In this document: positions 1,998-61,997 of the stretch, in pieces
Numbering within the stretch: the first letter of the stretch is position 1
How the letters are laid out: the number at the start of each line of letters is the position of its first letter
Assembly (NCBI GenBank): GCA_024734495.1
Contig: JALMQS010000257.1
Location: forward strand, 124,001 to 188,000
DNA length: 64,000 nucleotides
DNA from: Forficula auricularia
Lineage: Eukaryota > Arthropoda > Insecta > Dermaptera > Forficulidae
Direction: 5' to 3'
Made by a program: the position numbers and the translations under genes
The notes under the pieces: model-generated
The model's database searches: none
Told to the model about the DNA's origin: nothing
The model's input: only the letters and a program-made list of their open reading frames with translations

Positions 1998-2040
1998 TTT
2001 CAATATATATATTTCGGGCTGTAAGCCCATCTTCAGGAAA
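1998..2040 (-). ncRNA. Hammerhead-like ribozyme motif (AT-rich stem III)
   Basis: On the minus strand CTGAAGA (2036-2030) is followed by one T, the stem GGGC/GCCC with loop TTACA, then GAAA (2015-2012) and an alternating AT run able to form stem III. TTTC just before the core can pair with GAAA just after the AT run as stem I. The core agrees with CUGANGA...GAAA apart from the extra base after A9 that all copies in this window share. Activity is not known. Confidence 0.5.
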
Positions 2041-2145
2041 GTACAGAATAATAACTGTGTGTAATAAGTGACCTAGAATCCTTAACTCGTAGTAAATGAA
2101 TATTGTATATAATATTTATTTACTTTTAACTTTATTAAATATGTT

Positions 2146-2800
2146 TCGCCTTGCACCAACACCACAATCTCTACTAATTATTATATACTATTGGCGAAAA
2201 TCACGATAGTCGTAACATCTCTTCGAAATATAGCATATATAATTAATAATTATGGTCATGCTATTGTAATAACGAATTCATCTCTCCTGACATCTAGAGG
2301 CAGAAAGTTAAACTATGTTCTCTAATAAGAATAATACATTTACTTGCCCGTTTACTAGGGCTTATGATTTTGGTCAATACCCGGTGTAGATATTAATCAA
2401 TAAAATTTTTAAGAAAAAAATATAAAAACTAAGTAAATATCTAACATTTGAAAATAATAATAATTAAATAAATCAATAATAATACTTATGGATGATGATT
2501 GGTTGCAAGTTTAACGTCAACGCCTAATGTATATGCAACCATACTCGTCGCTTCAATGAAAACTTTGTCTACCTTGTTTTTAAAATGTATCTATTTACTT
2601 ATTACTTTCATTCCGTAATTGATTAAATTCTTTAACTTTTACTTTATTTTTTAATTATTTTTATATGTTTTTACATTTTATTATGCCTTTGAGAAAGATT
2701 TCTAAATAATAAAAATAACAGCGTTCATTTTTAATACGTAGTAAAAGTAAAGAGAGTGGATAGGGGAAGAAACATATTTTTCCTGTTTTACCTTCAATAT
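2146..2800. other. AT-rich region without recognised features
   Basis: No open frame above background, no repeat shared with the rest of the window and no palindrome longer than a few bases was noticed here. Confidence 0.5.
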
Positions 2801-2810
2801 AAACTTATAA

Positions 2811-2962
2811 ATCAAAAATAATTTAATTTTGTGGTCAAAATCTAAGAAATTAGTAGAGAATTTGTCGTCCCCTCAGGAATCGAACCCAAGCGCTAACTTG
2901 CTTTCCGCGCAATGTAACACTAATTTCTTAGATTTTGACCTTAAAATTAAATTATTTTTGAT
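2811..2962. mobile_element. Foldback with tRNA-like loop
   Basis: Arms of about 44 bp (2811-2854 and 2919-2962) are nearly perfect inverted repeats. The loop, read on the minus strand, contains GGGTTCGATTCC (2887-2876), a canonical RNA polymerase III B box, followed by a GAGGGG segment. The same module lies in foldbacks with unrelated arms at 45490-45968 and 49852-50313, and a weaker version at 25268-25440. Confidence 0.65.
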
Positions 2963-3049
2963 ATATATATATATTCAATAATTGTGGTCGCTTTTCCTGG
3001 GTCTTTGCATTAAATATAAATCAATTTTTTCTTTTTTGAAAATTTTTAT

Positions 3050-3262
3050 TTTTTAGACGGAAATTGAAACTTTTGAAGGCAGAAACATTAGTACTTTTTT
3101 GTTTTTTCTAAATAATAATAGTTATAGAAAATAACTTAACCAATTTTGCTGAAATTCAATATTCTACTTAAGTACACTGAGCACCGTTATATAATGTTTT
3201 CAGTAAAATTATATTTTAAAGTACTTTAACATTGCATAAGATGATACTTTTTTAAAAAATTT
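3050..3262. repeat. Fragment of dispersed family D
   Basis: This segment resembles the right part of the repeat at 12148-12733 and 21328-21983, including the ATTAGTACTTT and TAAAGTACTTTA motifs. It is truncated on both sides. Confidence 0.55.
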
Positions 3263-3290
3263 GTTCATTTGATCGGTTTAATATATACTA

Positions 3291-3840
3291 CCTGCCCAGC
3301 GAGCGATGCTCGGTAAATTTTTGCTTCAGTTAATAGCTATAACTCGATTTTTAATAAATTAAATTTTATATGAATTAATGTAACATTGTATTTGAGCTTC
3401 GACTTCGGAGATTACTTCTCCACCATCGACTATCCTTGATCATCTTTTTAGTCCTTGTTTTTAATAAGAAGAAAAAACTAATTAAATAAACAAAACTCTT
3501 TTCCGATCTTCATTCAATCAATTAAATTGCCCAATTTTGAATATATAATAATAATTGTAATAATCTTATTGTGTGATATAAAATTAAAAAACCAATTATT
3601 TATTAAAAGGAAATTGAATAAAAATGTAAATAAACATTTTTATCGAGACAACCGCCTCTGAATAATTATTTCAATTAACAAAAAACCCATCAAAAACAAC
3701 TTAGCCGAAGATGAGACCGTGACAGATCAAATGTCCAACACAAAACCTTCCTAACCAGTGAATTTCATCCAAATCGTTAGAGCCCTTTTCGAAAACACGA
3801 CCGGATATATACATATATATATATATGTTGTTCATTTAAT
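3291..3840. repeat. Dispersed repeat E, copy 1
   Basis: Starts near CCCAGCGAGCGATGCTCGG and ends near a TA-rich tract. The same sequence recurs at 26083-26820, interrupted there by a C-rich stretch. The terminal part (ATCCAAATCGTTAGAGCC and following) is of a type often seen at the ends of insect DNA transposons and Helitrons; the class is not decided. Confidence 0.6.
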
Positions 3841-4041
3841 ATGATAAGATATACTAGTTCAAAAAAAAAATACAAATCTTTTAAAAAACAATCTTAAGAA
3901 CGTTTTTTAATCCAAAAGTTTCGGGAGAAATTCTCCATTTATGAATGGAAATTTTTTTAAATTGAGAAAAAAAAGTTGTTTTCTCTAATGTTTAGAAAGC
4001 ATCCCTATTTAAATTTATACGTGTTTCGGGGTTTGGTTTAT

Positions 4042-4119
4042 GGAAGAGCGGACTTGAATCTGAAAACCGAAATACTAAGCGTATAGGACAGCTCTGACCC
4101 TCTTGAGCTGCTACCTCTA
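4042..4119 (-). ncRNA. tRNA-derived sequence (SINE head or tRNA relic)
   Basis: Read on the minus strand it carries an A-box-like TAGCAGCTCAAGAG near the 5' end and a B-box-like GATTCAAGTCC near the 3' end at tRNA-like spacing. The arms do not fold into a convincing intact tRNA, so a SINE head or pseudo-tRNA is more likely than a functional gene. Confidence 0.4.
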
Positions 4120-4590
4120 TACAAATCATTCAGCCGATTTCAAGAAGGGATGCAGCTTCTCCATTCTTCATTGAGACTTTGAAAACCGAACCCTTAGATT
4201 ACGTCGTAGAAGAGTATTGGATATCTATCTATTATTAAAATCCCTTAAATGATTAGGACATCTCTTTTATTTATTTAATTAATTCAATTAATTAATTTTC
4301 AACAGCAAGAACCTTAACAAGTTGGTTACAAATACAAATATTATCCACACTTCAACGAAACATAATAGATAATATGGCAATTGAAATTACATATTATTTG
4401 TTTTTCTGACAAAGCAACATTTAGTATTAAGGGAGGATTAAACGGCCCAAACCATGGCTTTTGGGACACAGAAAATATTTATTTATTTTTAGAATTGAAA
4501 GTTTTTGAGCCGAGGGTAGCAGAATTTTAATATCTTGAAGGAGACAATAAAAGAGTGTGTCTTCTGCTGGAATTTTAAATTTTATTTATT

Positions 4591-5450
4591 AGGTCATTCA
4601 ATAAGTCCGTAGGATGACACATAGATGGCGTTACTAGGATGTTTCACATATGATTTTTTATTTAGTACTAACCTTCAAACGATACGTGTATAAATTTGAC
4701 AGCAATCTGACTATTGATTCGTGAGTTAGGGCACTTTTGTTATTGAAAAAGTGTATTTCGAGTTTTAATAAAGCGTTGGATTTTGATGAAAAAAATACAG
4801 TGGAAACCTATCAGTGAGCATGATAAACATTGTCGAACTCACTCCGTAAACGAGACAAATGGTAGAGAAGTCGGATTGCATGAATTTAAACGTGGTCGTA
4901 CCAGCACAAATGATTCCAGAGCGCAGTGAACGCCCAAATGAGGCTCTTATTCCAGAAAACATAAAAAAATCCACAAATTGGTTATGAACGATCGCAAATT
5001 GAAGGTGCACGAGCTAGCTGACATTGTAAAGATATCAGATCGTAGTGTTTTTACCATTTTACACGAACATTTGGGAATGCTGCAAAGTGGGTGCCGCGTG
5101 AGCTCACAGTCGACCAAAAACAACAACGAATCGATGCTTCAGAGAGTGTTGGCGCTGTTAAACCGCAATAAAATGGAAATTCTATTGTCGATATGTGACA
5201 ATGGATGAGACATGGCTTCACTATTACACACCAGAATCCAAAAAAGAAGTCCAATGATGAAGTAATCGCTTAAACCGAGAGCCTATTTTGACGAGAAAGA
5301 GAAATCGTACTATAAAAGTGGTATTGAAAAGTTGGAAAATCGCTATACTTGTTGTATCGCCCTCGAAGGCAACTATGTTGAATAATAAAATCGAGTTTTG
5401 TCAAAATTTTGTTTTCTTCTTACTTATCCTACGGACTTATTGAATGACCT
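4591..5450 (+). mobile_element. mariner-like transposon relic
   Basis: Inverted ends AGGTCATTCAATAAGTCCGT (4591) and its complement (to 5450) match over about 25 bp, with weak similarity continuing. At about 860 bp the unit is shorter than a complete mariner (about 1.3 kb). Coding relics of the transposase are present between the ends. A TA duplication is not clear, probably because the target is itself TA-rich. Confidence 0.85.
4800..5400 (+). pseudogene. mariner transposase, internally deleted and frameshifted
   Basis: The relic would have encoded the DDE transposase that cuts and rejoins the element at TA. Residues readable from 4978 include DRKLKVHELADIVKIS and SVFTILHEHLGM, the second helix-turn-helix region of mariner transposases. 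A shift near 5190 leads to VTMDETWLHYYTPESKK, which carries the first catalytic Asp of the D,D34D triad. The sequence then jumps to a C-terminal piece ending CIALEGNYVE and a stop (about 5345-5385). The segment with the other two catalytic Asp residues is missing and at least two frame changes separate the pieces, so no active enzyme can be made. The N-terminal HTH half (about 4800-4977) is readable only with frame changes. Family assignment is confident; the subfamily was not determined. Confidence 0.85.
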
Positions 5451-5608
5451 GTTATATCGAGGGCTTTGCGCTCTTCATCAGTCTATTACAATTGATTCAC
5501 AGGAATTAATGCATGAATGATGAACAGGGCAAACTATAGTCTCGAAATAAATAAAATTTATAATTCCAGCAGAAGACACACTCTTTTATTGTCTCCTTCA
5601 ATTTATTT

Positions 5609-6055
5609 ATGACTTGAATAGCTTCACTAGCTAGCACTAAATTCCATCATATATAAGCCAGGGACAAATAACTAGAGTATTTTTTTAGTGACATACTACC
5701 TCCAATTAATGATGCTGTATGCTCCAGTTACCTTCTCTGCTCTTGACTTATTCCAACTTAAAAGTTGAATAACCTTCAATAATAAATTACATTTTATCTC
5801 TTCAAATGGAATTGATTTCTTTCTATCAATGACTGAGAAAACCTTGAGCGAGAAAATAAAAAAGAAAAAAAAACAATTTCAATTTGATTGGTAATTTGCT
5901 CTTGAATCGTTTCTAATGCTTCAATTCAATATCTGGTTGAATTTCGACTTCAATGATGATGAACCAGTGAAAACCTTCAAGATCCACCCTCATTTAAAAC
6001 CATTTGAAAAGTCTAAAAAATACCTACGCTTTTTTAAATTTATTCTACAAAAACA
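5609..6055. other. No recognised gene or repeat
   Basis: Moderately complex AT-rich sequence. The open frame starting at 5916 runs into the family B repeat and has no recognisable domain. Confidence 0.45.
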
Positions 6056-6752
6056 AAATAAGCTGACGTGTTCTGATGTGGCCATCCACTTGACTTTACC
6101 ATACAACCTGGCCCCTAAAATTATTTATAATCATGTAGGGGGGGGGTAATTTTTGCATTTTATACTTCTGGTGTCCCATTGATTATGTATAGAAAATTTG
6201 GTTGAGTTTGGTAAATGGCCAAGATTTTCATTTTTTTAACCCAAACTCCCCCCCCCATTTCGGGCGATTAGTTTTTGCATTTTTATACTTCTGGAGGTCC
6301 ACTGATTATGTATACAAAATTTGGTTGAGTTTGCTCAAACGGCCTAGATTTTTAATTTTTAACCCCCCCCCCTCCACCCCCTTAATTTTAGGTCGATATG
6401 CACCATAATCTAATCAGCTCTTAGTCTCAATGGACCAAAACTACGTGTGAAATTTGGTTTCGATATTCAAACTAGCTTTTGAGCTAGCTCGTCCACAATA
6501 ATTTGGTAACGCACAGACTAACTAACTAACAAACATTTTGACAAAACAATTATTATCTCAAAAAATACAATTTTTTGGATGTTCACTTAATAGGCTTTTT
6601 TGTAGACCGAAATGCCAGGGTTTCGCTCAATTTTTTTAATCAAAATACTTTCAGCTGTTTTCGAGATATTTCGAAAAAAAGAAGGAAAAAAACACTTTTT
6701 TCATGCACGATTACAATAGTTGACCATACCCTGTATGGTAAAGTAAAAAAAT
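6056..6752 (+). repeat. Family B repeat, copy 1
   Basis: Begins near AATAAGCTGACGTGTTCTGA and ends near CATACCCTGTATGGTAAAG. In between are about two units of a 115-bp module running from TTTTTGCATTT through GTATACAAAATTTGGTTGAG to a C-run. Downstream comes a conserved block ending in short CTAACTAACAAACA repeats and a TTTTTTCATGCACGATTAC segment. Other copies: 9437-10262, 17322-17913, 55199-56843. No coding capacity seen. Confidence 0.75.
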
Positions 6753-7122
6753 TATCTGGCCAATATCACATATCGAAGGTTCTGTACCTTATAACTAGGA
6801 TGTTGAAAGCCCAAAAAAGTCATTCTTTTTCTGAAAAAAAGTCGCCTGAAAAGTCTCGTTTTTTTTTTTTGTATAAATAGCCCGCAAAAAGTGTTTTGAG
6901 CAAAAAAAAGTCTTGTAGATAAAAAGTTTCTGAATAACCTTTGACAGGAAAAAAGTATTTATACGTATTCAATTCTATGTATGTTGATACATAAAAATGT
7001 TGATTAAAAACAGCTGCTCTCTTCTAAAATACTGATATAATCAATTTTATTATAATAAGCTTATTCTTATTTAGCACATTTCATTGTAAATATTACTTTT
7101 AAATAACATATTTTATAATAGC
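6753..7122. other. AT-rich spacer
   Basis: Poly-A tracts and short AT-rich repeats only; no gene or shared repeat recognised. Confidence 0.5.
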
Positions 7123-7443
7123 TGTTAGGGCTCTCGTGAGGTGAGTGCTGTGTGGCGCTTGTGCGCCCCATCAAGTCGATGGGGTCCTAACAATCTGTTG
7201 AGTGCAGGTTGTAGGTTGCGTGTCTCATATAGGGTGTGTGCAGGGGAGGGGCTGCTGGTTGGCATTTGGCCCCTCCAGATTCGCGTGTCCGAATCCGTTC
7301 GCTACCTCAGTCGAATCGAGTCGCTTTAATTATAGCATGGGTGAATATATTTCACTCATGCAAAAGCGACTCAACGATCCGACTGAGTCATCTAGCGGCC
7401 GTGGCTCAAGGCTCGTCGCCATGCGCAAGAGCGGGCCGCTACA
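7123..7443 (+). mobile_element. Solo LTR related to 1527-1905
   Basis: Starts TGTTAGGGCTCTC and ends GCCGCTACA, so it has TG...CA ends. Flanking pentamers are ATAGC and ATGGC (four of five match). Compared with the copy at 1527-1905 it lacks the 57-bp segment present there. High GC marks it off from its surroundings. No internal region or second LTR is adjacent. Confidence 0.6.
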
Positions 7444-8757: not shown

Positions 8758-8955
8758 CAGGGCCGGTTGTATGTCGCAAAGTAAATGCTTTTTACCACTA
8801 ACACAGGGTAGATGGTAAATGGAGGGGCTGGGATGGCCAATCAGATGCCAGGCATTGACAGTGCCTGGCATCTGATTGGCCATCCTAACCCTCCGTTTCC
8901 ATCTACCCTGTGTTAGTGGTAAAAAGCAGTTACTTTGCGACATACAACCGGCCCT
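8758..8955. mobile_element. Foldback element with CAGGGCCGG ends
   Basis: Nearly perfect palindrome of about 98-bp arms around 8857. The ends CAGGGCCGGTTGT and its complement resemble hAT termini, but I could not identify an 8-bp target duplication. The long minus-strand open frame across it is a by-product of the palindrome. Confidence 0.75.
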
Positions 8956-9111
8956 CAGTCGCGTCTAACCTATTACAAGGAATAAACAGATTTTCCCTGT
9001 GGTGAAATCTGTATCATGGAAAATTGGCTTCTTATTCAGGTCTGGGCGAATTTTGACACGTTACAGACATTTTCAACACAAAAAATGTTTCCTCATTAAT
9101 TTTATACTAGT

Positions 9112-10402: not shown

Positions 10403-10479
10403 ATAAATTGATTGTTGATCATTCGTATCAGGAATAGCAAGGAATAAATTGGACAAAATTAAAAACCCGGTTTTTTATT

Positions 10480-10530
10480 AAATGGGCCAGACGTTTCGTC
10501 AATTTATTTCGATTTCCTCACTGACCTATT
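10480..10530 (-). ncRNA. Hammerhead-like motif, core-mutated
   Basis: The minus strand has TTGACGAAACGTC with the 3' stem I sequence TGGCCCATTT. The core reads GTGAGGA in place of CTGANGA, so essential C3 is lost and the 5' stem I strand is also altered. Predicted inactive. Confidence 0.5.
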
Positions 10531-10704
10531 TTATCACTCTTTGTCAAAAAACAATTTCACTGTGTACCACAAAATCATTAATCTTTTTTATCAAATATTC
10601 CTGGCTCAAATTAATCAACAACCTTGGACTTTTCTTTAACAATTTAAAAAATATTCTTTGATGTTTTGTCGAATAGTGAAATTGTTTTTTGACAAAGAGT
10701 GATA

Positions 10705-10756
10705 AAATGGGCCACTTAGGAAGTCAAAATGAATTGACGAAACGTCTGGCCCATTT
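10705..10756 (+). ncRNA. Hammerhead-like motif, core-mutated, perfect stem I
   Basis: AAATGGGCCA (10705-10714) pairs perfectly with TGGCCCATTT (10747-10756) as a 10-bp stem I. Stem II is GTCAA/TTGAC. GAAA (10739-10742) is followed by CGTC with predicted cleavage after 10746. The core is CTTAGGA, so G5 is changed to T; since G5 is essential in hammerheads this copy is probably dead although the fold is kept. Confidence 0.65.
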
Positions 10757-10920
10757 AATAAAAACTCTGTGTTTTTAATTTTGTCAATTCCTTACTATTC
10801 CTTTTACAAATTAATAAAATTTTAAAATTTTTTACTTGAGATAGTAGATTCTACAGTATAATTGTAGTAGGTTTATTAATTTACGTCATCCATATGTAAA
10901 GAAAGAATCTATTTTCATTA

Positions 10921-11713: not shown

Positions 11714-11868
11714 AAATTGAAAGTTTTTTTGCCGAGAGTAGCAGAATTTTTATATACTGAAGGAGACAATAAAAGAGTGTGTCTTCTGCTGGATGCTTTA
11801 TAACGTTATAAATAAATAAAATTTATAATTCCAGCAGAAGACACACTCTTTTATTGTCTCCTTCAATT
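11714..11868. mobile_element. Family X foldback, compact
   Basis: Tail GCCGAGAGTAGCAGA on the left, then arms built on AGGAGACAATAAAAGAGTG and its complement, with a short AT-rich loop and no hammerhead motif. Confidence 0.8.
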
Positions 11869-11984: not shown

Positions 11985-12026
11985 ATTGCATGAATAATGG
12001 CCAGAACGGATCGAAACGTTGGCAAT
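11985..12026 (+). ncRNA. Degenerate hammerhead-like motif
   Basis: ATTGC (11985-11989) pairs with GCAAT (12022-12026) as stem I. GGCC and GGATC can form part of stem II, and GAAACGTT follows. The 5' core (ATGAATA) has diverged from CTGANGA. AATAAA follows directly, as in other copies. Confidence 0.35.
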
Positions 12027-25619: not shown

Positions 25620-25660
25620 GTGGATGAAGATTAAACGTTCGAAACTATAGTCTCTAACAA
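25620..25660 (+). ncRNA. Degenerate hammerhead-like motif
   Basis: GGATGAAGATT, a GTTC arm and GAAACTATAGTCTC resemble the family X motif at 60363-60402, whose 3' half reads GAAACTATAGTCTCG. The 5' core has diverged to TGGATGA. It abuts the 60-bp tandem array. Confidence 0.35.
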
Positions 25661-35191: not shown

Positions 35192-35341
35192 TAGAGTTTT
35201 ATGAATTATGTAGGTACATAAATATATGAAATATATGGTATATCTCTTAATTGAATGTAATGGAAGGCAGCCCAGAGGTAGTGAGGAAAGAAAAAATTAA
35301 CACATATCAAATAAGGTGTAATTTATTGGAAACTCCTTCTT

Positions 35342-35396
35342 CCTTTCAAACCGACGTTTCGGAGGATTTTTCCCTCCTTCTTCAGGGTTTCAAGGG
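35342..35396 (-). ncRNA. Hammerhead-like ribozyme motif
   Basis: Minus-strand CTGAAGA (35385-35379), stem II GGAGG/CCTCC, then GAAACGTC (35360-35353). The stem I strands are CCTTGAAACC and GGTTTGAAAGG. The core matches CUGANGA...GAAA. Confidence 0.7.
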
Positions 35397-35464
35397 TCAA
35401 TGAATGAAACAAATAAAATGTTTCATTTAACACATATCAAATAAGGTGTAATTTATTAGAATCT

Positions 35465-35521
35465 TCCTTCATATCCTTTCAAACCGACGTTTCGGAGGAT
35501 TTTTCCTCTCCTTCATTCAGG
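35465..35521 (-). ncRNA. Hammerhead-like motif with inserted base
   Basis: Same family as its neighbours, but the core reads CTGAATGA, one base longer, and stem II has an extra pair of bases. Probably inactive. Confidence 0.5.
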
Positions 35522-35603
35522 GTTTCAAAGGTCAATGAATGAAACAAATAAAATGTTTCCTTGGAGAGAAGAAGGAAACATTTTATTTGTTTCATTCATT
35601 GAC

Positions 35604-35657
35604 CCTTTGAAACCCTGAAGAAGGAGGAAAAATCCTCCGAAACGTCGGTTTGAAAGG
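35604..35657 (+). ncRNA. Hammerhead-like ribozyme motif, best-preserved copy
   Basis: CTGAAGA (35615-35621), one A, stem II GGAGGA/TCCTCC (35623-35628 and 35633-35638), GAAA (35639-35642), then CGTC with predicted cleavage after 35646. Stem I pairs 35604-35614 (CCTTTGAAACC) with 35647-35657 (GGTTTGAAAGG) at 10 of 11 positions. Stem III is only A-C/G-U without a loop, so a working fold would need two molecules joined through ACGU. Known relatives are small hammerhead variants of Penelope-like elements. Activity here is inferred. Confidence 0.75.
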
Positions 35658-35951
35658 AAAGAGGAAGGATTCCAATAAATTACACCTTATTTGATATGTG
35701 TTAGTTTTTTCTTTCCTCACTACCTCTGGGCTGCCTTCCATTGCATTCAATTAAAAGATATACCAGTCCGTCTCTCCAGAGAAAATTTTGTTGCAAAAAA
35801 AATATCTCTTAATATTTAAATTTTCAAGGTTGACATTTATCTCAGAACCTTTGGCGCAAGCACAGTATAAATTTACATGAAGCTACAATTCTTATTTTTG
35901 ACAAGGCTAGGTTCAATCACATATGTGTACCGCATTTTGTGTATAACTCCC

Positions 35952-38987: not shown

Positions 38988-40070
38988 CTACGTAGATTTA
39001 GATCTACTCTTCCGTTTGTATTCCTCTGGCGAAATACTTCTTTGTGGATTAAACCTGAGAGTACCTGTGGACCAGGTTGAGCGCCAAGGCTTCTTGTTTG
39101 TGGACCTCCGATTACCAATCTCGGACGGCCTGTTTGTCCTTGACAGGTTGTTAGTTTGTGATGTAAAACTCTGGAAATTGCGAGAAGTCTGGTCTGGTTT
39201 GAGTGAATTGGTAGTGAGCACAAAAATACTCTTGGTTGCTTCATTTGTTTGTTTGTTTCCCAATTCACTTGGTAGAGGTTCTCTTGGTAATGCTGGTGCA
39301 GAGCCTAGCAACACCCATCCGAATTCTGTATTGAACATTGCTAAGTTACTGTTGGGAACATTGAACTTCTCTCCTGTGAAAATCTTGGCACATACAGTTG
39401 CTCCCAATATTCCGTGTATTGGAGCTGAAGTGTGGAAGTATGGGTCTGCCAGTGGTTTGTCTTGGATAAAAGCGACCAAGGCTGGGTCGACAGGCCTGGT
39501 TGGTAATGTGAGTTCAATTTTGTCCACTATATGGAACTCATACGGTTGGTAGTTCGTGTCACTGTAGCACGATGAAATATGGATCAGAGTCGTATGTGTG
39601 GATTCCATTTTGTTTGCGGTGCCCAATCCTTCTATATGAATCGGATCTGGTTTTCTTCTGGTACCCAGAGTGCGTGCCAACTGTTTGGATATGATGGAAA
39701 CCTCACTTGCTGAATCAAGTAGGAATCTCGCTGGATGTATGGTACCATTATTATGTAAGAGATGGATTCTGACTGTGGAGAGTAATGGCACCTGTTTAAG
39801 TCCCTGTTTCCTGGTTTTGTTAGGGCCACTACAAGTCTTCCGGGTGGGAGTATTTAGTCCTGGGCTGGCTTCTGTCTTGAGATCCAGATTGATCCGAATT
39901 AGAGGAAGTAAGAAAGGTCGCGAGACTAGATTGAGGAGAGGAACTGACGCTAGAACGTGCGGAATTGATTTAGTGTAGTTTCTCTGTTTTTCATGTAAGA
40001 ATAAAGTTACGGTGGTGTAATTTGCCGCAAAGAAAACATGGCCTAAATGTGCAATTAGTTCGTCAGCCAT
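38988..40070 (-). CDS. BEL/Pao Gag-protease fragment (360 aa)
   Basis: The only long intact frame in the window. An aspartic protease processes the Gag-Pol polyprotein in virus-like particles. The frame contains ARFLLDSASEVSIISKQLA (catalytic region about residue 117), where the usual D-S/T-G triad reads D-S-A, then IEGLG and, near residue 250, FNTEFGWVLLGS, a hallmark of BEL/Pao proteases. Just upstream, in another frame, CFLCGKLHH looks like the Gag zinc knuckle (about 40048-40020), implying a frameshift near the start; the first Met is therefore not the real start. The C-terminal 100 residues are Ser/Thr/Arg-rich and unrecognised. Reverse transcriptase should follow but the 3' LTR comes instead. 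The Gly-to-Ala change probably weakens or abolishes proteolysis. Confidence 0.8.
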   Translation of the reverse strand: MADELIAHLGHVFFAANYTTVTLFLHEKQRNYTKSIPHVLASVPLLNLVSRPFLLPLIRINLDLKTEASPGLNTPTRKTCSGPNKTRKQGLKQVPLLSTVRIHLLHNNGTIHPARFLLDSASEVSIISKQLARTLGTRRKPDPIHIEGLGTANKMESTHTTLIHISSCYSDTNYQPYEFHIVDKIELTLPTRPVDPALVAFIQDKPLADPYFHTSAPIHGILGATVCAKIFTGEKFNVPNSNLAMFNTEFGWVLLGSAPALPREPLPSELGNKQTNEATKSIFVLTTNSLKPDQTSRNFQSFTSQTNNLSRTNRPSEIGNRRSTNKKPWRSTWSTGTLRFNPQRSISPEEYKRKSRSKST

Positions 40071-41526
40071 GTGTGGGTGAAGAAGCGAGAATGTTCACCG
40101 TTTGTGGTCTTCATGATGTTTTGTATCAGATCTGGTTCGGATAAGGTCAAGAACTGCTGGCATTTCTCTTCCAGATTCCGTGACTCGATCAAGTTTTGAC
40201 GGAATCGGACATGTGCTGTTTGTAATGGTGAGCAGGTATATGTTTTGGCTGTTCCTACTCTTTTTGGAGAATTATATTAGTGGTTGTCTGATGTTTGTTC
40301 TAGGTGTTTGATTAGTTTTATATTGTGTCTCACATAGCCCCTGGGACCTGAGTAAGTACTAGATGTTTGAGGAGAGTATCGAGAGTTCGGCGCTTCATCT
40401 ACCACTTGTGTATCAGCCAGCATCACGCTTTCATAATGAGTGCGAAGTCAAATCTTTGTGATGATGATCCTTGTTATGATAAGCATTACAGAGCTAGTTA
40501 GGTCTAAACCTGAGTGTTTTCACGACTGTTGTGGCGATGTCTCTTACTGAGATGTTAAACTGAAACTAGAGGGAGTCTTTGGTTCGGATAGTAGTTACAC
40601 GAAGGTAAGAGGTCAAGGAGCTTGTCTATGAATGAGAATATCAGGACCTCTCATACTTGGAGTCATAAACTGGAGACTTAAAGTGAGATCCAAAGCATCA
40701 ATGGCTGTAATTTTCGTCTGTAATGCCAGGGAGACCATGCCTGAACCAGACCAAGTGCTGTACCAGGACCTAAAAGGCTCCCCCTGAGGTATCGTCAAAT
40801 TTTTGGGCTTTAGTGATGTGTTTTATTTTGATCCTATTCGTAAGCAGAGGAATAAAGAAATCCAAAAACGATTCCAGTTCTCATAATTCACCTGAGAACT
40901 TCAGGAAAGATTCAAATTAGTGGGTGAATGAACCTGGAGACTAGATGTATGGAGTTGGTGTTGAGGTCCTGGGTAAGTGCTAGAGGGGGCTAGTTCGTCA
41001 GTTCAAAATAGATTTGGCTTCTCTTAGTATATTTATAAGAGAATCATAATGTGCGGTGATTGGCCCATCTGAGATCATCCCCCTCCTGCTAGGGCAAATA
41101 AGTCAATGTTGCTGATGCTTTCTTGATCAGATATTCTTAATGTCATCACCTCACAAGTTTTTCCGCACGTTCTAAAGTATCTGAAGCCAACTGCAGCTAA
41201 CTGATAAGGGTTCTCTTCACAGTCAGCAAAAGGGTTTCATCAAAGGCATCCACGAGTCCGCGACCCTGAGCTCACTATATCTGCCTTTGACTTGTTCTAG
41301 TGTCGATTTGGGTGGCATTGTGAAAGATTATGACTAAATACAATGAGTAGAGGCTCATTTGTATAATTACAACCCAAAAATAAATCGGGAATATAATGTA
41401 AAAATAAAAATAAAGCCATATGATAAATTTCAATAAAATTATTTGCACTTTGTTTGGCAGATGACTCTACAGTACAGCCATGATTCAGCAGTTTAGGATC
41501 ACGTCCGGAATGCCATAAAATTTAAA
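40071..41526 (-). pseudogene. Decayed BEL/Pao gag region
   Basis: Between the presumed primer-binding site and the protease frame the minus strand has only short open pieces, interrupted by stops. It lies where gag should be (capsid-like protein packaging the RNA). I recognise no capsid motif, so the call depends on position. A zinc-knuckle-like CFLCGKLHH occurs at its 3' end. Confidence 0.45.
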
Positions 41527-44924: not shown

Positions 44925-45020
44925 TAAATTGTTTCAAAATTTGTCATCTTTTACAGGATGCCAAATATACGTGGTTTAAAAAATAATTAATTATTTTATG
45001 TTGATTAATGTCTATTATAA
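44925..45020. repeat. Family A half copy
   Basis: TTTGTCATCTTTTACAGGAT and the following GATTAAT stretch represent one arm. Confidence 0.4.
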
Positions 45021-45265
45021 TTATTAGATTAAAAATTCACAGTTCATTGGACAATGTTTTTTTGATACATCAATCTAGAAAGAAAAAATTCTACTATGTC
45101 TCAAATTATTTTTATCGTTATCTCAACCAATGTTGCTCTAACCAATTGAGTGCTTGAAAAAAGTCTCGAGAGAGACGAAACGTTGTACAAAAATTGAATA
45201 AGAGCTTCAATAAAAAAACATTGTCCAATGAACTGTGAATTTTTAATCTAATAATTAATTATTTA
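45015..45265. mobile_element. TIR element with hammerhead-like motif
   Basis: Inverted ends of about 45 bp: CACAGTTCATTGGACAATG (near 45038) and its complement (near 45223). The interior is not palindromic and carries one plus-strand motif at 45150-45188. Confidence 0.65.
45150..45188 (+). ncRNA. Hammerhead-like motif, core-mutated
   Basis: Stem I GTGC/GTAC (one G-U), stem II GTCTC/GAGAC with loop GAGA, then GAAACGTT. The 5' core reads TTGAAAA instead of CTGANGA, so it is predicted inactive. Confidence 0.5.
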
Positions 45266-51763: not shown

Positions 51764-52167
51764 ATAATTGAGCCCGCGAAAGATAACAGATAAAATATTC
51801 CTAATTAAAAATCAAACAAATAAATTCTATATATACATATTTATATTTGGTATAAATATGTATATTATACTGATTGTCGTTGATTTCTTTATATTATTTT
51901 TTACTCTAACTTACGATCTAAAGTCTGGGAGGTGTAAAAAGTTATAAAATAATAGCTTTTTTGTTCAGGGAGAATGTCGTTGGTTCGAGGTGAAACTATA
52001 TTTATAAAATAAAAAATTAAATTACTATAGGTAGGTTTCACAAATAAAATAAATATTTCTTATGAGTAAGACTCATTATATATTTCAGATAACGAGTCCA
52101 TCTTCAGGAATTTAAATCATATAGGTATATTAGCTAAGTATCCCTTAAAGCTTATTTGTGATTGAAT
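51764..52167. other. AT-rich; doubtful hammerhead-like motif
   Basis: Minus-strand CCTGAAGATGGACTCG followed by CTGAAAT near 52115-52085 recalls the motif at 1998-2040, but stem II pairs poorly. Nothing else was recognised. Confidence 0.3.
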
Positions 52168-53512: not shown

Positions 53513-53563
53513 TAACTACAATAATCAGGTTTTTTATGAACACCACTTGACTTAGTAAACTTC

Positions 53564-55827: not shown

Positions 55828-56355
55828 TGTAGAAAAACTGAGACGACAGGGCATATTCTCCAGTCGTGTGGGAGGACGCACGATGGAAGGCTCAGGAGGC
55901 ATGATGCGGTGGTGAGACGTCTGGCTGATGAACTTATTAAAAAGGGAATGCGGGTCGAGCTCGAATATTTATATCAGAGCTCGGCCGGAAACAGGAAGCC
56001 AGACATCGTGGCGAAGGACGGGTCGGGGACGGTGTGGGTTCTGGATGTTCAGATAGTGTCAGCGCTCCTCGGACTGGGGGTTGCCCACAGAAACAAAATC
56101 AATTATTATAAGGGCAACTCCAGTCTGGTGAGCAACATTGCGGCAAGGTTTGGGGTGGGCTCGGGTTCTGTGAGAGTTGAAGCCATCACACTCTCGTGGA
56201 AGGGAGTGTGGTGGCATAAAGCGGTGCCTCCCCTTGTCGCCCTGGGAATTTCTCAGAGAACTTTATACGATATGACCTTCAGGGCGATGAGGGGTTCATT
56301 AATGAACTTTTACAGCTTCAACAGGAGAACTTATAGGGAAATCGCCATGCGATAG
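55828..56355 (+). pseudogene. R2-type ORF C-terminus: zinc knuckle and restriction-like endonuclease
   Basis: The surviving 175 codons would form the target-cutting end of an R2/R4/NeSL-type polyprotein. They open with C-x7-H-x4-C (Cys at 55828, then ETTGHILQSC), the second half of the CCHC zinc knuckle; truncation falls inside it. LRRHDAVV follows (the R/KH motif before the nuclease), then RKPDIVA, WVLDVQI and HRNKINYY. These correspond to the PD...D...K active site of the restriction-like endonuclease that nicks target DNA. The frame is uninterrupted to a stop at 56353-56355, so the copy is fairly young, but the reverse transcriptase is missing and the fragment cannot mobilise itself. Confidence 0.85.
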
Positions 56356-56527: not shown

Positions 56528-57001
56528 CAATGGACCAAAACTACGTGTGAAATTTGGTTTCGATATTCACACTAGTTTTTGAGATAGCTCGTCCACAAAT
56601 TTGGTAACGCAGACTAACTAACAGACATTTTGACATAACAATTATTATCTCAAAAAATATAATTTTTTCGATGTTCACTTATTAGGGCTTTTTTGTAGAA
56701 CGAAATGCCATGGTTTCGCTCAATTTTTTTTTAATCGAAATAGTTTCAGCAGTTTTTTAGATATTTTGAAAAAAGAAGGAAAAAAACACTTTTTTCATGC
56801 ACTATTACAATACTTGACCATACCCTGTATGGTAAAGTAAAAAATTAAAAAATGATTTACTACTTAATAAAGATTTTATTGGTGGGTCGATTTTTTGCAC
56901 TTCAATGTATAATATATATCAGTGGCGTGCGGTCCATGGATACGGCACATCCCTAAAATTTCAAACATTTAGAGTATTTTGATAAATATATAGATAAAGT
57001 C

Positions 57002-57245
57002 GAAAGAGAAACAAAGAGATTGTCTTCTGCTTGATGCAAATAAACATATACACATATATATCAAGATGATATATCTGTATATATATATTATTTATTTGTT
57101 TGATCAAACAAATAAATAATATATATATACAGATATATCATCTTGATATATATGTGTATATGTTTATTTGCATCAAGCAGAAGACAATCTCTTTGTTTCT
57201 CTTTGTGAATCAACAACTCTGCTACTCTTGGCAAAACAAAAACTT
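57002..57245. mobile_element. Family X-prime foldback, 102-bp arms
   Basis: Arms meet at 57103/57104 (TTTGATCAAA) and appear complementary over almost all of 102 positions. The right side continues into the tail CTCTGCTACTCTTGGC. The arms include TA-rich tracts that differ from the short X-prime at 8013-8126. Confidence 0.85.
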
Positions 57246-57675
57246 TTCAACTAGATAAAGTCAACTTTAAAATTTCAGGAGGATCTTTAAATTTTCAAAT
57301 TATTATCGGCTATTTCAAATATTTCTATATAGAAAACATTTTTTGTTTTGAAAAGTATATATAAGGCGCTCAGAGTGGATCAAGTCCATAAATGATAGTT
57401 TCAAGATAATCAAGTTTTGAAGTTTATTAACTCTATATGAATCCTAAAGTAATATAGAGGATAATTTGTTTTTTATTGTTGTAGTATGAAAACTAACTTA
57501 AATATGGGTCATAATTGAAAATTCAAAAATAATAATTAAGATGGCAATTTAATTTTAAATCATAATTTACTGGACTTGATCCACTTTGGCCCTGAAATGT
57601 TTATTTCATAATTAATCAAGTATGTTGGCAGGTATTTGGACAGGAAAGTATTAAATCAAAAATTTTCATTGATTT

Positions 57676-57716
57676 ACGCGACGTTTCGCCAATTTTATTT
57701 TGGCTTCATCAGGCGT
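57676..57716 (-). ncRNA. Hammerhead-like ribozyme motif, canonical core
   Basis: Minus-strand CTGATGA (57712-57706), one A, stem II GCCAA/TTGGC, GAAACGTC with predicted cleavage before 57679. Stem I ACGC/GCGT. Confidence 0.7.
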
Positions 57717-57822
57717 CTAAAAAAACATGCAAAAAACATAGTTTCAGAGAAATTAAAAAAGTTACATTTGTTTTGTGTATTTTATGTTTATTTCTCTGTT
57801 TTTTGAGTTGTTGTTTTTTCAA

Positions 57823-57863
57823 ACGCCTGATGAAGCCAAAATAAAATTGGCGAAACGTCGCGT
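57823..57863 (+). ncRNA. Hammerhead-like ribozyme motif, canonical core
   Basis: CTGATGA (57827-57833), one A, stem II GCCAA/TTGGC (57835-57839 and 57847-57851), GAAA (57852-57855), CGTC with predicted cleavage after 57859. Stem I is ACGC (57823-57826) with GCGT (57860-57863). It would need dimerisation through ACGU because stem III has no loop. Confidence 0.75.
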
Positions 57864-58334
57864 AAATCAATGAGAATTTTTTGATTTGCTACTTTCCTGT
57901 CTAAATACCTGCCAACATACTTGATTAATTAAATAATATGGATGCTATGGACTTTAATAATTTTATTACATAATGTTGGAATATTTTATTACTTTTTAAC
58001 ACCTGTATGATAAGATATTATAAAAATAATATTTAAATCTGGGTGAAGATACTTCTATACGTATTTTATTTTTCTACTATAATGGCTCTGATACGCTGGA
58101 AAAGAGTAAATATGTGATAATATAACGATATTTTGGGGTTGATCCAGTTTAGAGCGGAAATTTTATGAGAGTTTTACATGTCCAAAGACAAGTGCTGCCA
58201 TTTGTTAAAAATTATCAATAAGAGGGACTTAGTTCACTATGTTTCTGAAAATATAAACCATTAACAAGTATTAATCCGCAACAAACAAAATTTTTACAAT
58301 TTTGGACTTGATCCGCTTTAGCTCTGAGCGCTTC

Positions 58335-58660
58335 ATATAGTGGTTCTCGGAATGAAATAAAATTGTTGAATAGTTTCAAGGGGCAATTAAAATGAATGAT
58401 TTTTCTAAAAAGGGCGTTGATAGAAGGTTTCAAGTTCCTGCCTGTGGTAGATATATCTTCCAGTTCAAGCATGTCAAAGACAAGTCCAGACGAGTCGAAT
58501 AAAAATTGTTCTTGCTGAGGAACTATTAAAATAGAAATAATACAAAAAAGGAATCAATAAAGATGATTCAGGAATTTTTGGAATAATTCATTTCTAAGAA
58601 ATCTCAATATATAATAATACTATATATAAGAGCCTATATTAATTTGTAACAACGCTGAGA
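58335..58660. other. No recognised gene
   Basis: AT-rich unique sequence. The minus-strand frame ending at 58215 overlaps the TIR element and has no domain. Confidence 0.4.
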
Positions 58661-58675
58661 GAATTTTCTTTAAAA

Positions 58676-58756
58676 AAATTACCCTCTTGCCTATAATCGA
58701 ACCGACGAACTCTTGAACTAAGGGCATCAGCTCTAGCCATTACACCAATGCAACAT
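58676..58756 (-). ncRNA. tRNA-like sequence
   Basis: Minus strand: TTGGTGTAATGGCTAGAG (A box) and CGGTTCGATTAT (B box) at tRNA-like spacing. The 3' acceptor pairing is poor (GTTGCAT against AGAGGGT), so a SINE head or relic is favoured over a tRNA gene. Confidence 0.45.
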
Positions 58757-58799
58757 TAATATTTATATCTTGATTTCTGTTACTAAAACTATATATTTT

Positions 58800-59290
58800 T
58801 GATTTAGACTTTGTGTCGAGATAATATTATGTATTCATTTGAACTCGAATGAAAATGAAAAAACACCAATAGATTTTAAATTAAGAAACATTAAATATAT
58901 ATTAATTAACGAGGCAAATTTGAAATATAATTGTCAGCTCGGATTTTAAACTCATAGCTCCAATCGATTTTCATTAACCAGGCAAATTTGAAATATAATT
59001 GTAGTTTGCACTCGAATTTTGAAATGAAAGATTCCAATTCATTTTAAATTAAGAAACATTAAATATATTGATAATTATTCCTCGCCCCCTCCCCGCCCCT
59101 CGCCACTCAAAAATTAAAGAGGCGAAACTTTTAAGAGACGATGTATTTTCGGTAGTTTACGGGTATACATTTGGAGTGTGGTTTTTTAAGAGGAATACAA
59201 TTTTTGGACCGAGACGCTGCCCGCCAGGGCACAAGTCCGGAGGGCCGAGCTTCGAGGGCGTGCCGAAGGCACGCACGAAAAGCTCGTGAA
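58800..59290. repeat. Dispersed repeat F, copy 2 (reversed)
   Basis: Contains TATACATTTGGAGTGTGGTT, GGAGGGCCGAGCTTCGAGGG and AGGCACGCACGAAAAGCTCG, the complement of 27190-27330. The AAATTAAGAAACATTAAATA segment occurs twice (58878 and 59044). Confidence 0.65.
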
Positions 59291-59650
59291 TACATATTTG
59301 AATTCGGCAGCGAATTTTCATTCGGAATATAAAATAATAGTGAGGGTAAAAGTGGAAGAAATGCCTTATTTTTGTCTGATTAAAAATTACCAAAATTTAA
59401 ACTCCGGCTATAACTCAAAACTACGTTTTTTTATTGAAGGAGACAATAATAGAGTGTGTCTTCTGCTGGAATTATAAATGTTATTTATTTTCCAGCAGAA
59501 GACACACTCTTTTATTGTCTCCTTCAATATATAAAAATTCTGCTACCCTCTGCAAAAAAATTTCAATTTACGTTTTTATACTTTTAAATGTTCAAAAATT
59601 CATATCTGAGTCAAATTTTGTAATTTTTGGTTTTAGCTACCTTCTACGAC
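59284..59650. repeat. Inverted partial copy of MITE H, split by family X
   Basis: 59284-59430 is the reverse complement of about 59945-60105, sharing AATTTAAACTCCGGCTATAA against TTATAACTGGAGTTTAAAAT. A family X foldback (59432-59569) interrupts it. Confidence 0.6.
59432..59569. mobile_element. Family X foldback, compact
   Basis: Arms on AGGAGACAATAATAGAGTG and its complement meet across a short AT loop; the tail CTGCTACCCTCTGC is on the right. Confidence 0.8.
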
Positions 59651-59819
59651 AAGCAGGGACTGTGGACATATCCTACCCCGGTCCACAAAGGGGACAAAGT
59701 TAATTGTTATTTATATATTTAATTAATAAAAATTAAAAAAAAAATAGTCACTACTAAGGGATGAATTTTTTCTATTTTATAAGCATTTTAGACAATTTTT
59801 ATTTTATATATTATGTGAT

Positions 59820-60179
59820 ATGGTGTCACGGAAAAGGTCCCTTATCTTCACCTGGTTAAAATCGAGCTAATTTCTAGAGAAACAACTGGACAAAACGCTT
59901 TTTGCACCGCCCAAAAATTTCAAATATTGACTCAATTTTTGTATATTTCGAAGATAAAAACATAATTTTGAGTTATAACTGGAGTTTAAAATTTGGCAAT
60001 TTTTAAGCAGACAAAAATAGCGCATTTCTTCCATTTTTAGCCTCGCTAATATTCTATTCCGAATGAAAATTTGCTACCGAATTCAAATATGTAATTATAT
60101 CCATATTAAAGCTCATATTTTTGTCATTCCTAAAAAAAAACTGGTAGGTGAAGATAAGAGCCCTATTCCCTAACACCAT
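59820..60179. mobile_element. MITE H, about 40-bp imperfect TIRs
   Basis: ATGGTGTCACGGAAAAGG then CTTATCTTCACCT on the left; the complement of the right end reads ATGGTGTTAGGGAATAGG then CTTATCTTCACCT. Confidence 0.65.
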
Positions 60180-60297
60180 TATATATATATAGGAACAATT
60201 TCCCTATAGAAAATGAAAATTTTCAAAAAATAAAAAATTTAATTTTTTTACATTTTTGAGATTTTCAAAATTCTTGACCGACCTCTAGAAAAATTTA

Positions 60298-60547
60298 TTA
60301 AAGGAGACAACAAAAGAGTGTGTCTTCTGCTGGAATTATAAATTTTATTTATTTTTATTTATAACGAGACTATAGTTTCGAGGGCTTTGCCCTCTTCATC
60401 AGTCTATTACAATGTATTCACAGTAATTAATTTATGAATGAAAGTTTAAAATCTTTCATGTTAAATAATTCCAGCAGAAGACACACTCTTTTATTGTCTC
60501 CTTCAATATATAAAAATTCTGCTACTCTCGGCAAAAACTTTCAATTT
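60298..60547. mobile_element. Family X foldback with hammerhead motif in the loop
   Basis: Arms as in other family X copies; the right tail is CTGCTACTCTCGGC. The 125-bp loop carries a minus-strand motif at 60368-60402. Confidence 0.8.
60368..60402 (-). ncRNA. Hammerhead-like ribozyme motif with looped stem III
   Basis: Minus-strand CTGATGA (60402-60396), one A, stem II GAGGGC/GCCCTC with loop AAA, GAAA (60379-60376), then C-TATA-G-TC, so stem III has two pairs closed by a 4-base loop. Predicted cleavage follows the C at 60368. Stem I is weak (GA/TC plus a few pairs). Confidence 0.65.
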
Positions 60548-61130
60548 AATAGAAAAATTTAAATCGAACTAAAATTTCCAAGACGATTCTTAAAATATAA
60601 AATGTTAACAAATTTCATGCGATACTCAAAAAACTTAAGTAACATTATTATAAGTAGCTAATATAGTGAAAATAAAAAACACAAAGTAATAAAAATCTAC
60701 TTGCTGAGAGAGGAGAGGGGATAATTATTAAAACGCTCTATTGATAGAAATTTCATTCTAAATATTATTCTTATTAAAAATAATTTAAAGATTTATATAA
60801 TTCTCAATTATACATTAATATGCTGGTAAGCATTTGAAAGCTTAAATACACACACACATACACATACACATAATCATGAAATCTTAAACACACACTTCCT
60901 TCTTTAAAATTCTTTTTGCTTTTTCTCCTGTTTCAAGAAAACAATAAAAGTGAGAAGAGATTGATAATGGGAAAAAAAATAGAAATTGCAGAGGGCGCTT
61001 GCTATCTAGGTGTGTGTTCAATGATGCAATCAATTTCAAAATTTTCTTTACTATTTATCAAATAATTCTAAAAAAACATATCGTTAAGTGAGAATAACAT
61101 TCATATACCGAGAGTTTCATATCGAATAGA
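60548..61130. other. No recognised gene
   Basis: 60690-61030 is unique sequence with (CA)n and purine-rich segments; it may be host intergenic DNA. Confidence 0.4.
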
Positions 61131-61420
61131 TATGAAGTTTAATATTTATTTTTGTGATTATTTTTTAAGTTTTTATATATTTTATTGATTTGTATGTATT
61201 GTTTGATCTTATGTATGTTTGTATTATCTTTTTGTGATTATTTTTAAGTTTTTGTATATTATTGATTTGTATCACTTCACTTTTAATTATTATTTATTTA
61301 TTTTTATTTATTTTTGTGACTTTTGTAAAAAATTTCAATTATATTATTGTGTATAAGGACACTTTTGTCCGTTTATTGATTTAAAATAAAAAAATAAAAA
61401 ATATTTCATTATTCGTGTCC
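61131..61420 (+). mobile_element. Possible retroposon 3' end with internal duplication
   Basis: TTTTTGTGATTATTTTT and TATTGATTTGTAT each occur twice. The segment ends GGACACTTTTGTCCGTTTAT then AAAATAAAAAAATAAA, like a LINE/SINE tail. No coding sequence. Confidence 0.35.
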
Positions 61421-61498
61421 ATGATTAATAATTAAAGGAATCGTAGGGAGTTGGACAAGACTTTAAAATTAAATTAAATACAAGTTTTGATTAAATAT

Positions 61499-61538
61499 GC
61501 CATACGTTTCGTTGCTGTTTTGCAACTTCTTCAGTGGC
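61499..61538 (-). ncRNA. Hammerhead-like ribozyme motif, canonical core
   Basis: Mirror of the plus-strand motif: CTGAAGA (61534-61528), stem II GTTGC/GCAAC, GAAACGTA, stem I GCCA/TGGC. Confidence 0.7.
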
Positions 61539-61957
61539 TCATTTATTAAACTTATTTGTCAGGATTTTTTACTACGAGAAAAAACATTTCAAACAATATT
61601 CTTTTTTCTATCACAATTCATTCAATTCATCAACTAACATAAAATATAAACTTTTTAAACAAATTAATTGTTTTTTGTCAAAAAACTAAAAGAATCAAAT
61701 TGAACAAAGAAATTTTTTTTTTTTTTATTTATTTTAAGATGTCATTAAGAAGATTATTATGTACATAAAAAAAAAAAAAAAAAAAATTTCTTTGTTCAAT
61801 TTGATTCTTTTAGTTTTTTGACAAAAACAATTAATTTGTTTAAAAGTTTATATTTTATGTTAGTTGATGAATTGAATGAATTGTGATAGAAAAAGAATAC
61901 TGTTTGAAATGTTTTTTCTCGTAGTAAAAAATCCTGACAAATAAGTTTAATAAATGA

Positions 61958-61997
61958 GCCACTGAAGAAGTTGCAAAACAGCAACGAAACGTATGGC
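61958..61997 (+). ncRNA. Hammerhead-like ribozyme motif, canonical core
   Basis: CTGAAGA (61962-61968), one A, stem II GTTGC/GCAAC (61970-61974 and 61981-61985), GAAA (61986-61989), CGTA with predicted cleavage after 61993. Stem I is GCCA/TGGC (61958-61961 and 61994-61997) and can extend beyond one mismatch with ATG-type pairs. Confidence 0.75.

Follow-up and report, generated by a model that had tools for sequence, protein, structure and literature searches.

Motifs of the form CTGANGA, short hairpin and GAAA recur through a 64,000-nucleotide stretch of the Forficula auricularia genome (the whole of it is hereafter the window), and they raise three linked questions: whether they are self-cutting RNAs, what kind of repeat carries them, and whether they cut in living cells. 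The motifs contain a CUGANGA...GAAA core, an intervening stem II and an NUH triplet, which are the features of type I hammerheads, and the nucleotides before the predicted cut are GTC, GTA, GTT or ATT. An additional nucleotide after A9 gives the best fit of stem II in every listed descriptor match and, with ties counted in favour, in 61 of 62 genome copies. Stem III is a loop-less palindrome, which points to probable activity as dimers; we thus regard the motifs as probable minimal type I hammerhead ribozymes for which dimer action is predicted.

The original prediction listed such motifs at a series of coordinates, and reading the sequence at each of them recovered most. A strict descriptor (CTGANGA/GAAA core, stems I and II both of at least 4 bp) matched 8 distinct window positions, against a mean of 0.07 and a maximum of 2 per shuffle in 200 dinucleotide shuffles. 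Most motifs form outward-facing pairs within palindromic elements. The inverted element of family A (61429..62066; stem III ACGT, cleavage triplet GTA) has intact cores with stems I and II at 61503-61534 (-) and 61962-61993 (+), and a direct-repeat search of its flanks gave no convincing target duplication (score 7). The inverted element of family B (10421..10811), whose arm is homologous to family A, carries decayed hammerheads at 10484-10527 (-), where C3 is altered in the motif at 10484, and at 10709-10752 (+), where the strict-descriptor motif (10715-10746) has one core change. Intact cores with both stems are also found in the inverted elements of family C (57601..57936), at 57680-57712 (-) and 57827-57859 (+), and family D (35252..35801), at 35353-35385 (-) and 35615-35646 (+). 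The family D element has a third hammerhead at about 35480-35486 (-), damaged by a 1-base core insertion, as well as a tandem duplication in its left arm, a one-sided tail starting at about 35766 and direct repeats ATATCTCTTAAT at 35240-35251 and 35802-35813.

The family E element (1902..2122) has a single intact hammerhead with both stems at 2002-2036 (-), with stem III ATATATATAT. Family F is represented by an element at 60295..60510, whose motif (60368-60402, -) combines an intact core with a longer palindromic stem III, ACTATAGT, and by inverted copies at 5457..5606, with both hammerheads broken, and 11758..11867, whose right arm begins at +1 from the predicted cleavage site. Family G (45018..45257) has 46-bp identical terminal arms and a degenerate hammerhead at 45148-45190 (+), the motif at 45148 showing core changes and an insertion. 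Among the sites first rated as weak, 35952 (+) shows one core change and 5457-5492 (-, family F) retains the core without GAAA; the motif at 25620 is degenerate, and no hammerhead core was read at 11985.

The endonuclease of Penelope-like elements (PLEs) is of the GIY-YIG type, and loci with this domain are abundant in this genome: all 150 scored candidates, of 3,423 first-look candidates, lie above the Pfam cut-off. A hammerhead occurs near 15 of the 20 GIY-YIG loci examined, window family F in two of them, and the family F element at 60295..60510 is homologous to a PLE locus (L158) that adjoins a GIY-YIG domain. In another family, P1, the hammerhead lies between the tandem units of locus L163, where the open frame measures 858 aa, and flanks an open frame of 864 aa on either side at L164; these frames and the GIY-YIG domain, the one domain covered by the scan, may mark autonomous members. 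By sequence, families P1, F and G1 are linked to GIY-YIG genes, and the hammerhead sits in the pseudo-LTR (pLTR), a PLE hallmark. No coding member was found for families A-E, which would be relatives of the same kind of PLE. The original prediction had seen no Penelope coding region in the window, and indeed none of 30 window ORFs tested matched RT or GIY-YIG. Two protein searches returned 2 and 11 hits, of which a mosquito protein at 28% identity was the single one with a name. The prediction's suggestion of PLE-type small hammerheads in non-autonomous relatives gains support from the hammerheads beside GIY-YIG genes and from the PLE insertion anatomy described below. Its phrase "unrelated repeat families" was too strong, as the repeats look like many families of one kind.

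Our new observation is that the cDNA 5' ends of family P1 pile up at the predicted ribozyme cut. The window holds one complete minimal P1 insertion (57002..57251), with arms running from 57103 to 57002 (-) and from 57104 to 57251 (+). Its head-to-head junction, GTTTGA meeting TCAAAC, is a perfect palindrome with no loop and falls exactly at the predicted cleavage nucleotide; each arm aligns with L163 starting at position 0. The insertion is flanked by an 11-bp target-site duplication, TAGATAAAGTC (56991..57001 and 57252..57262), which occurs just twice in the window. A diverged P1 copy at 51812..51865 (+) also has its 5' end exactly at the predicted site. Genome-wide, 33 of 100 arm ends fall at position 0 and 3 of 100 lie 1-11 nt upstream, in 50 listed junctions of 217 sites, a set that includes some sites that are not P1 and in which the +2/+3 counts are inflated by the search anchor. 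In family F, one arm ends at 0 and another at +1 relative to the family's ribozyme, as seen in two copies. The near-full-length P1 loci gave 8 usable 5' ends, from 5 of 8 loci fetched, and none is at 0. None of 36 family D matches (stem III ACGT) ends at the cut; their arm ends are scattered on both sides of the ribozyme with no fixed point found, and no arm ends at 0 in the other ACGT families examined. Some arm-end counts, as well as the covariation counts below, include overlapping loci (L117/L118/L141, L119/L120/L142, L124/L165, L129/L170, L133/L171 and L138/L173); a recount without them leaves P1 and F unchanged and gives the 36 matches for family D instead of 46. That many P1 copies begin exactly at the cleavage nucleotide suggests that the RNA is cut in living cells and that cutting fixes the start of new copies.

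Two other explanations of this pile-up were weighed. The P1 start at 0 could be a transcription start that matches the hammerhead cut by accident, which we judge improbable. The Inr consensus is TCA, with +1 at the A. An Inr-type start would predict +2, a position poorly resolved here owing to the search anchor, whereas the P1 end is the very nucleotide set by the ribozyme register, and the two family F arms end at or next to the same point of their own ribozyme. Genomic copies alone do not separate a capped from a cleaved 5' end, and PLE pseudo-LTRs are reported to contain motifs resembling promoters (PMC3846280). A somewhat less probable reading is that reverse transcriptase halts at the folded hammerhead of uncut RNA. 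The junction does lie at the 3' edge of the motif, and stable RNA structure can stop reverse transcriptase; however, none of the family D matches stops there although the stem II of that family is strong (GGAGG/CCTCC), and several P1 arms enter or cross the hammerhead, ending at -12, -48, -161 and -184.

The insertion anatomy of the host repeats is that of PLEs: their arms are inverted and meet head to head, a tail is present on one side, and direct repeats flank the insert. In the first 100 places listed, 21 neighbour pairs lie within 500 bp of each other, 17 of them -/+, 3 +/- and 1 on the same strand. The tail measures about 45-47 nt in families D and P1. Family D 3' ends are bimodal, at 108-116 in 16 of 36 and at 150-159 in 16 of 36, and in all 13 P1 insertions examined one outer arm measures 91-106 nt and the other 145-155 nt. 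The target duplication is 10-13 bp in all 12 testable P1 insertions, against a null maximum of 8; the 12 P1 sites fetched had been chosen for an arm ending at 0 by exact parse. A direct-repeat score of at least 12 was reached by 12 of 21 elements, and by 4% of 404 mismatched flank pairs; the other 9 elements did not reach it. Flanks are shared on one side in families A (2 loci), C (2) and K (3), and tandem pLTRs are also present in P1. Tandem direct repeats of the retrozyme kind were not found, as the one same-strand pair among the 21 comes from two different families; a single tandem duplication was noted, inside the family D element of the window.

A reading as TIR DNA transposons (MITEs) carrying hammerheads by accident was considered first, since long inverted arms flank a short centre, and was dropped because genome copies carry the one-sided tail. 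Symmetrical termini with a fixed-length TSD were not found. The two 3' end sites, the long direct repeats, the variable arm 5' ends and the fact that copies of F and P1 are homologous to GIY-YIG loci also contradict it for families D, F and P1, and we consider it very unlikely.

The ribozyme assignment itself rests on several comparisons. As the original prediction held, stem II varies between families and still pairs, and stem I pairs as well: in a comparison of 13 stem families, pairing holds at 50 of 52 positions in stem II (permuted mean 30.4, maximum 43) and at 38 of 52 in stem I (permuted mean 22.1), and none of 20,000 permutations reached such pairing, so the covariation exceeds chance. 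A covariance model for which the 5 training sequences all came from families A, C and D recovered four held-out families, with matches at 10709 (5.7e-9), 10484 (9.7e-6), 45148 (7e-4), 35952 (0.002) and 60369 (0.004); family E at 2002 was not listed in its window search. Rfam hammerhead models found nothing across the window as a whole (E ≤ 5) and nothing in three short stretches searched at E ≤ 10, and the Rfam matches obtained were to palindrome and other non-hammerhead types only; the missing stem III hairpin is the presumed cause. The proposed covariance-model support came from our own model and not from the Rfam models. Across the genome (1.06 Gb), exact CTGANGA...GAAACGT matches number 58,829, against 321 for the reversed pattern. 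Motif scans of IMG/VR returned 87 and 27 stretches; none of the 87 has a stem II of at least 6 bp, the one at 5 bp lacks a stem I pair, and a scan for the family F terminal repeat gave no match. That the motifs are chance or DNA-level protein-binding motifs, as the Rfam silence might suggest, is scarcely credible given the shuffle, reversed-pattern, held-out model and covariation tests. The motifs appear to be genuine small self-cleaving RNAs that belong to Penelope-type elements.

Ribozyme architecture, covariation, inverted arrangement, tail and target duplication can all be read from the sequence. Taken together, we think it likely that PLEs of an AT-rich genome carry these motifs as minimal type I hammerheads, and that what the window contains are short, non-coding insertions of such elements with arms joined head to head. 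Two cDNAs would be primed, as we infer, at both ends of the cut target, and would start at two internal RT sites that serve as alternatives and are separated by about 47 nt, leaving one arm with a tail and the other without. They would then be joined head to head and flanked by the target duplication (10-13 bp in P1). In P1, and perhaps in F, the ribozyme would cut the transcript before reverse transcription, so that the cut end would be both the start of the template and the meeting point of the arms. With somewhat less confidence, we favour the view that the hammerhead cut sets the 5' end of the Penelope RT template in living cells, that two cDNAs, one per RT start site, are joined at ribozyme-made ends to leave a non-coding footprint of about 250 bp with a 10-13 bp duplication, and that families with stem III shrunk to ACGT lost this step and still spread by the thousand. 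Copies starting at the cleavage nucleotide would record in the genome that the RNA was cut before it was reverse-transcribed, and any genome that contains PLEs of this sort could be read for them. The P1 copies offer a clean view of PLE integration, with two RT start sites, one per arm (13 of 13 examined), and hint at the nature of many minimal hammerheads found "dispersed" in animal genomes.

Known systems share parts of this picture. Metazoan retrozymes also carry type I hammerheads in small non-coding repeats, but those described are tandem, yield circRNA and have canonical loop contacts (PMC7229834), whereas the repeats here are inverted PLE copies. Poseidon of Anolis carolinensis (PAc) is likewise described as cutting and extending both target strands, with its tail explained by a pair of adjacent internal RT start sites, and with a hammerhead near the ORF start (PMC11167929). 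That account also reports that insertion in vitro did not require the hammerhead and that RNA-seq showed no ends at its cut, which counts against the cleavage reading for P1. Penelope of Adineta vaga has similar inverted head-to-head pLTRs, junction palindromes and a one-sided tail, reported as an optional 31 bp on one inverted pLTR, with a TSD of 8-10 bp (PMC3846280); the P1 insertions examined differ in that they span only about 250 bp, are non-coding and have their junction where the ribozyme would cut; their duplications measure 10-13 bp and their tail about 47 nt. The minimal type I hammerheads described in PLEs (Cervera and de la Peña, 2014; Lünse et al., 2017) are alike in their reduced or absent stem III, thousands of dispersed copies, PLE linkage and expected dimeric action. 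Those are tandem, whereas the motifs here occur mostly as outward inverted pairs, and one family has its cDNA ends at the cut.

Hammerhead-like motifs are frequent in the window. We searched with a descriptor that combines stem I of at least 4 bp, CTGANGA (one change tolerated), an optional extra base, stem II of at least 4 bp, GAAA, a palindromic stem III and NUH. Eight distinct positions satisfy it, compared with a mean of 0.07 and a maximum of 2 in 200 dinucleotide shuffles. This result, and inspection of every coordinate in the original prediction, bears out its claim of many such motifs. The stems were compared across six repeat families: A (61.5/62.0 kb), B (10.5/10.7 kb), C (57.7/57.8 kb), D (35.3-35.6 kb), E (2.0 kb) and F (60.4 kb). 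Stem II pairs are intact in 30/30 cases and stem I pairs in 22/24. When the true assignment is counted among all 720 permutations, one reaches the stem II value and two reach the stem I value. The best fit of stem II has one extra base after A9; a viroid hammerhead with an extra core nucleotide was reportedly described by De la Pena and Flores in 2001. Covariance-model support, which had been proposed as a check, was divided: a model trained on families A, C and D alone retrieves B, G, the 35.95-kb copy and F at E<=0.004 in the window, while E was missed and the Rfam hammerhead models did not match the window motifs. A degenerate hammerhead-like stretch resembling family E (CTGAAGATGG...GAAATATATA) lies at 52083-52107 (-), a locus that had not been listed before. 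The left arm of family D contains a tandem duplication (35307-35560) with hammerheads 133 bp apart on the minus strand, the sole direct-repeat arrangement of the motif seen in the window.

The motif is abundant throughout the 1.06-Gb assembly, of which the window is a part. Exact matches to CTGANGAN{8,24}GAAACGT number 29,466 + 29,363, and the backward-read control gives 159 + 162. Among the first 100 places listed, 21 neighbouring pairs are less than 500 bp apart (17 -/+, 3 +/- and one same-strand); 16 of the 17 -/+ pairs unite a single family by listed sequence, and the other four pairs unite different families. We clustered 110 motif copies into 13 stem families; the copies came from genome loci, some of which overlap, and from the window. 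Stem II pairs in 50/52 comparisons (permuted mean 30.4, maximum 43) and stem I in 38/52 (permuted mean 22.1, maximum 36), and none of 20,000 permutations equals either value. The covariation between families that had been suspected from the window alone is upheld in these copies.

Candidate autonomous Penelope-like elements (PLEs) are well represented in the same assembly. The PF01541 profile for their GIY-YIG endonuclease gave 3,423 first-look candidates, and all 150 of those scored exceed the Pfam cut-off; several of them are contained in open frames 825-864 aa long. Contig C563 carries three matches in tandem at a spacing of ~2.9 kb (frames of 858, 858 and 427 aa). A hammerhead motif occurs within the roughly 3.2 kb examined at 15 of 20 GIY-YIG loci. 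Family F adjoins GIY-YIG matches at two genomic stretches, L156 and L158, its window copy aligning to the latter over 169 bp at 91% identity, and the hammerhead of a further PLE family, P1, is situated between tandem units (L163, L164). No coding member of families A, B, C, D or E was found. None of 30 window ORFs tested matched RT or GIY-YIG, and the window copies thus appear non-autonomous, in agreement with the earlier suggestion of relatives without a coding region.

Other ORFs were observed in the window. That at 38988-40091 (-) has a weak gag-type aspartyl protease match and one named relative, a mosquito protein (28% identity). The 175-aa ORF at 55828-56352 (+) looks retroelement-like by eye; its 11 relatives are all unnamed, and ten of these are ENA entries with 62-80% identity. 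The ORF at 4942-5205 (+), within the inverted-repeat span 4529-5607, has a weak helix-turn-helix match and may, by its likeness, be a mariner-type remnant. A strong palindrome without a hammerhead (GGCCAATCAGATG...) at 8810-8904 recurs in other stretches of the genome (L117, L138, L141); its below-threshold Rfam matches are miRNA precursors.

Families A-G all sit in inverted-repeat elements, whose spans make up 22.5% of the window; four weaker motif loci (35.95, 25.6, 12.0 and 52.1 kb) lie outside them. Symmetrical transposons were rejected as an explanation because genome copies from 20 regions are extended at one end only. In family D this one-sided extension has 22 anchor matches listed, some due to chance, and a common flank of the same kind occurs in two A, two C and three K loci. 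Among 36 non-overlapping D matches, the 3' ends fall 108-116 nt after the predicted cut in 16, 150-159 nt in 16 and elsewhere in four. Tail and arm are flanked by direct repeats. With one mixed-family pair left out, 12 of 21 elements score at least 12, a level reached by 4% of the 404 mismatched pairs of flanks used as a control; window elements score 12 (D), 10 (C) and 7 (A).

In P1, many insertion ends coincide with the predicted cut. The P1 ribozyme ends in GAAACTATAGTC, so its 3' product would start with TCAAAC, whose first base we number 0. The window copy at 57002-57251 is a palindrome without a loop, and its centre, GTTTGA|TCAAAC, joins two P1 copies that start exactly at the cut base. 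Across 274,292 bp surveyed without overlaps, 39 P1 matches were retained and 22 had a 5' break inside the reference. Five breaks lie exactly at 0 (window 57103, 57104 and 51812, and L140 twice), the remaining 17 at +6 to +82, and none from -86 to -1. At around 2420-2800, L140 has two same-orientation arms starting exactly at the cut, beside a third copy in opposite orientation.

Genome-wide, a head-to-head junction pattern, which detects ends from +3 to about -12 or beyond with a gap of at most 30, found 217 sites (reversed control, 11). Arm ends were parsed by exact match at the 50 sites listed of these 217: 33 of 100 are at 0, six at +1, three in total at -1 to -11, and seven at -12 to -16, where arms enter the ribozyme. 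The counts at +2 (23) and +3 (28) are too high, owing to the anchor and to non-P1 sites. At least one arm is at 0 in 26 of the 50 sites, and both arms in seven. Twelve of the 50 were retrieved for having an arm at 0, and with the window copy all 13 insertions have outer arms of 91-106 nt and 145-155 nt (median difference 47). Direct-repeat scores are 10-13 in all 12 testable insertions, with a maximum of 8 in 132 mismatched pairs; L186, which holds two extra partial P1 copies between its arms, extends past the retrieved stretch and was outside this test. L194 starts at +1/+2 by BLAST, not at 0. The P1 insertion at L184 (G000:C60:10898950-10899450) has its target-site duplication (TSD) within a hammerhead that belongs to a different PLE copy.

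Near-full-length P1 copies speak against ends set by the cut. Five of eight such loci yielded eight usable 5' ends, located at -184, -161, -48, -12, +96, +215, +251 and +353, none at 0; the remaining loci gave a stretch boundary or no match. The 39 matches of family F include an arm that ends at 0 and another at +1; many of the 39 are cross-matches of the ribozyme itself. No arm end at 0 was found in families D, A, B, C, K, O and others tested. Position 0 could instead mark a promoter start in P1, which we consider improbable. That reverse transcriptase simply stops there is less probable still.

If, as is likely, cleavage sets the P1 ends, the hammerhead would cleave a PLE transcript that contains the ribozyme unit. 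We infer that it probably acts as a dimer, held together by the ACUAUAGU or ACGU palindrome; for most motifs the predicted dimer offers little advantage over two monomers, with a larger gain for E and P1. The 3' product would begin at position 0. Reverse transcription would begin at about +101 or +150, with priming from both target ends suggested here by the anatomy, and would proceed to the RNA 5' end, after which the two cDNAs would be joined. Copies from uncut or otherwise truncated templates, as in D and the other ACGT types examined, would meet at other, variable places.

The ribozyme class, its abundance and its link to PLEs are already described in earlier reports (PMC7761336, PMC7229834, PMC6466107). 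Literature searches not aimed directly at the point found no report of insertion ends at the hammerhead cut; if these are already in print, our finding is a known one. For Poseidon of Anolis carolinensis, priming from both target ends has been shown in vitro, and the tail is the stretch separating two RT start sites (PMC11167929). Published PLE insertions consist of inverted pseudo-LTRs with a palindromic junction, an optional 31-bp tail on one pseudo-LTR and a TSD (PMC3846280). The host repeats share these inverted pseudo-LTRs, palindromic junction, one-sided tail and TSD, and their anatomy matches the published PLE pattern.
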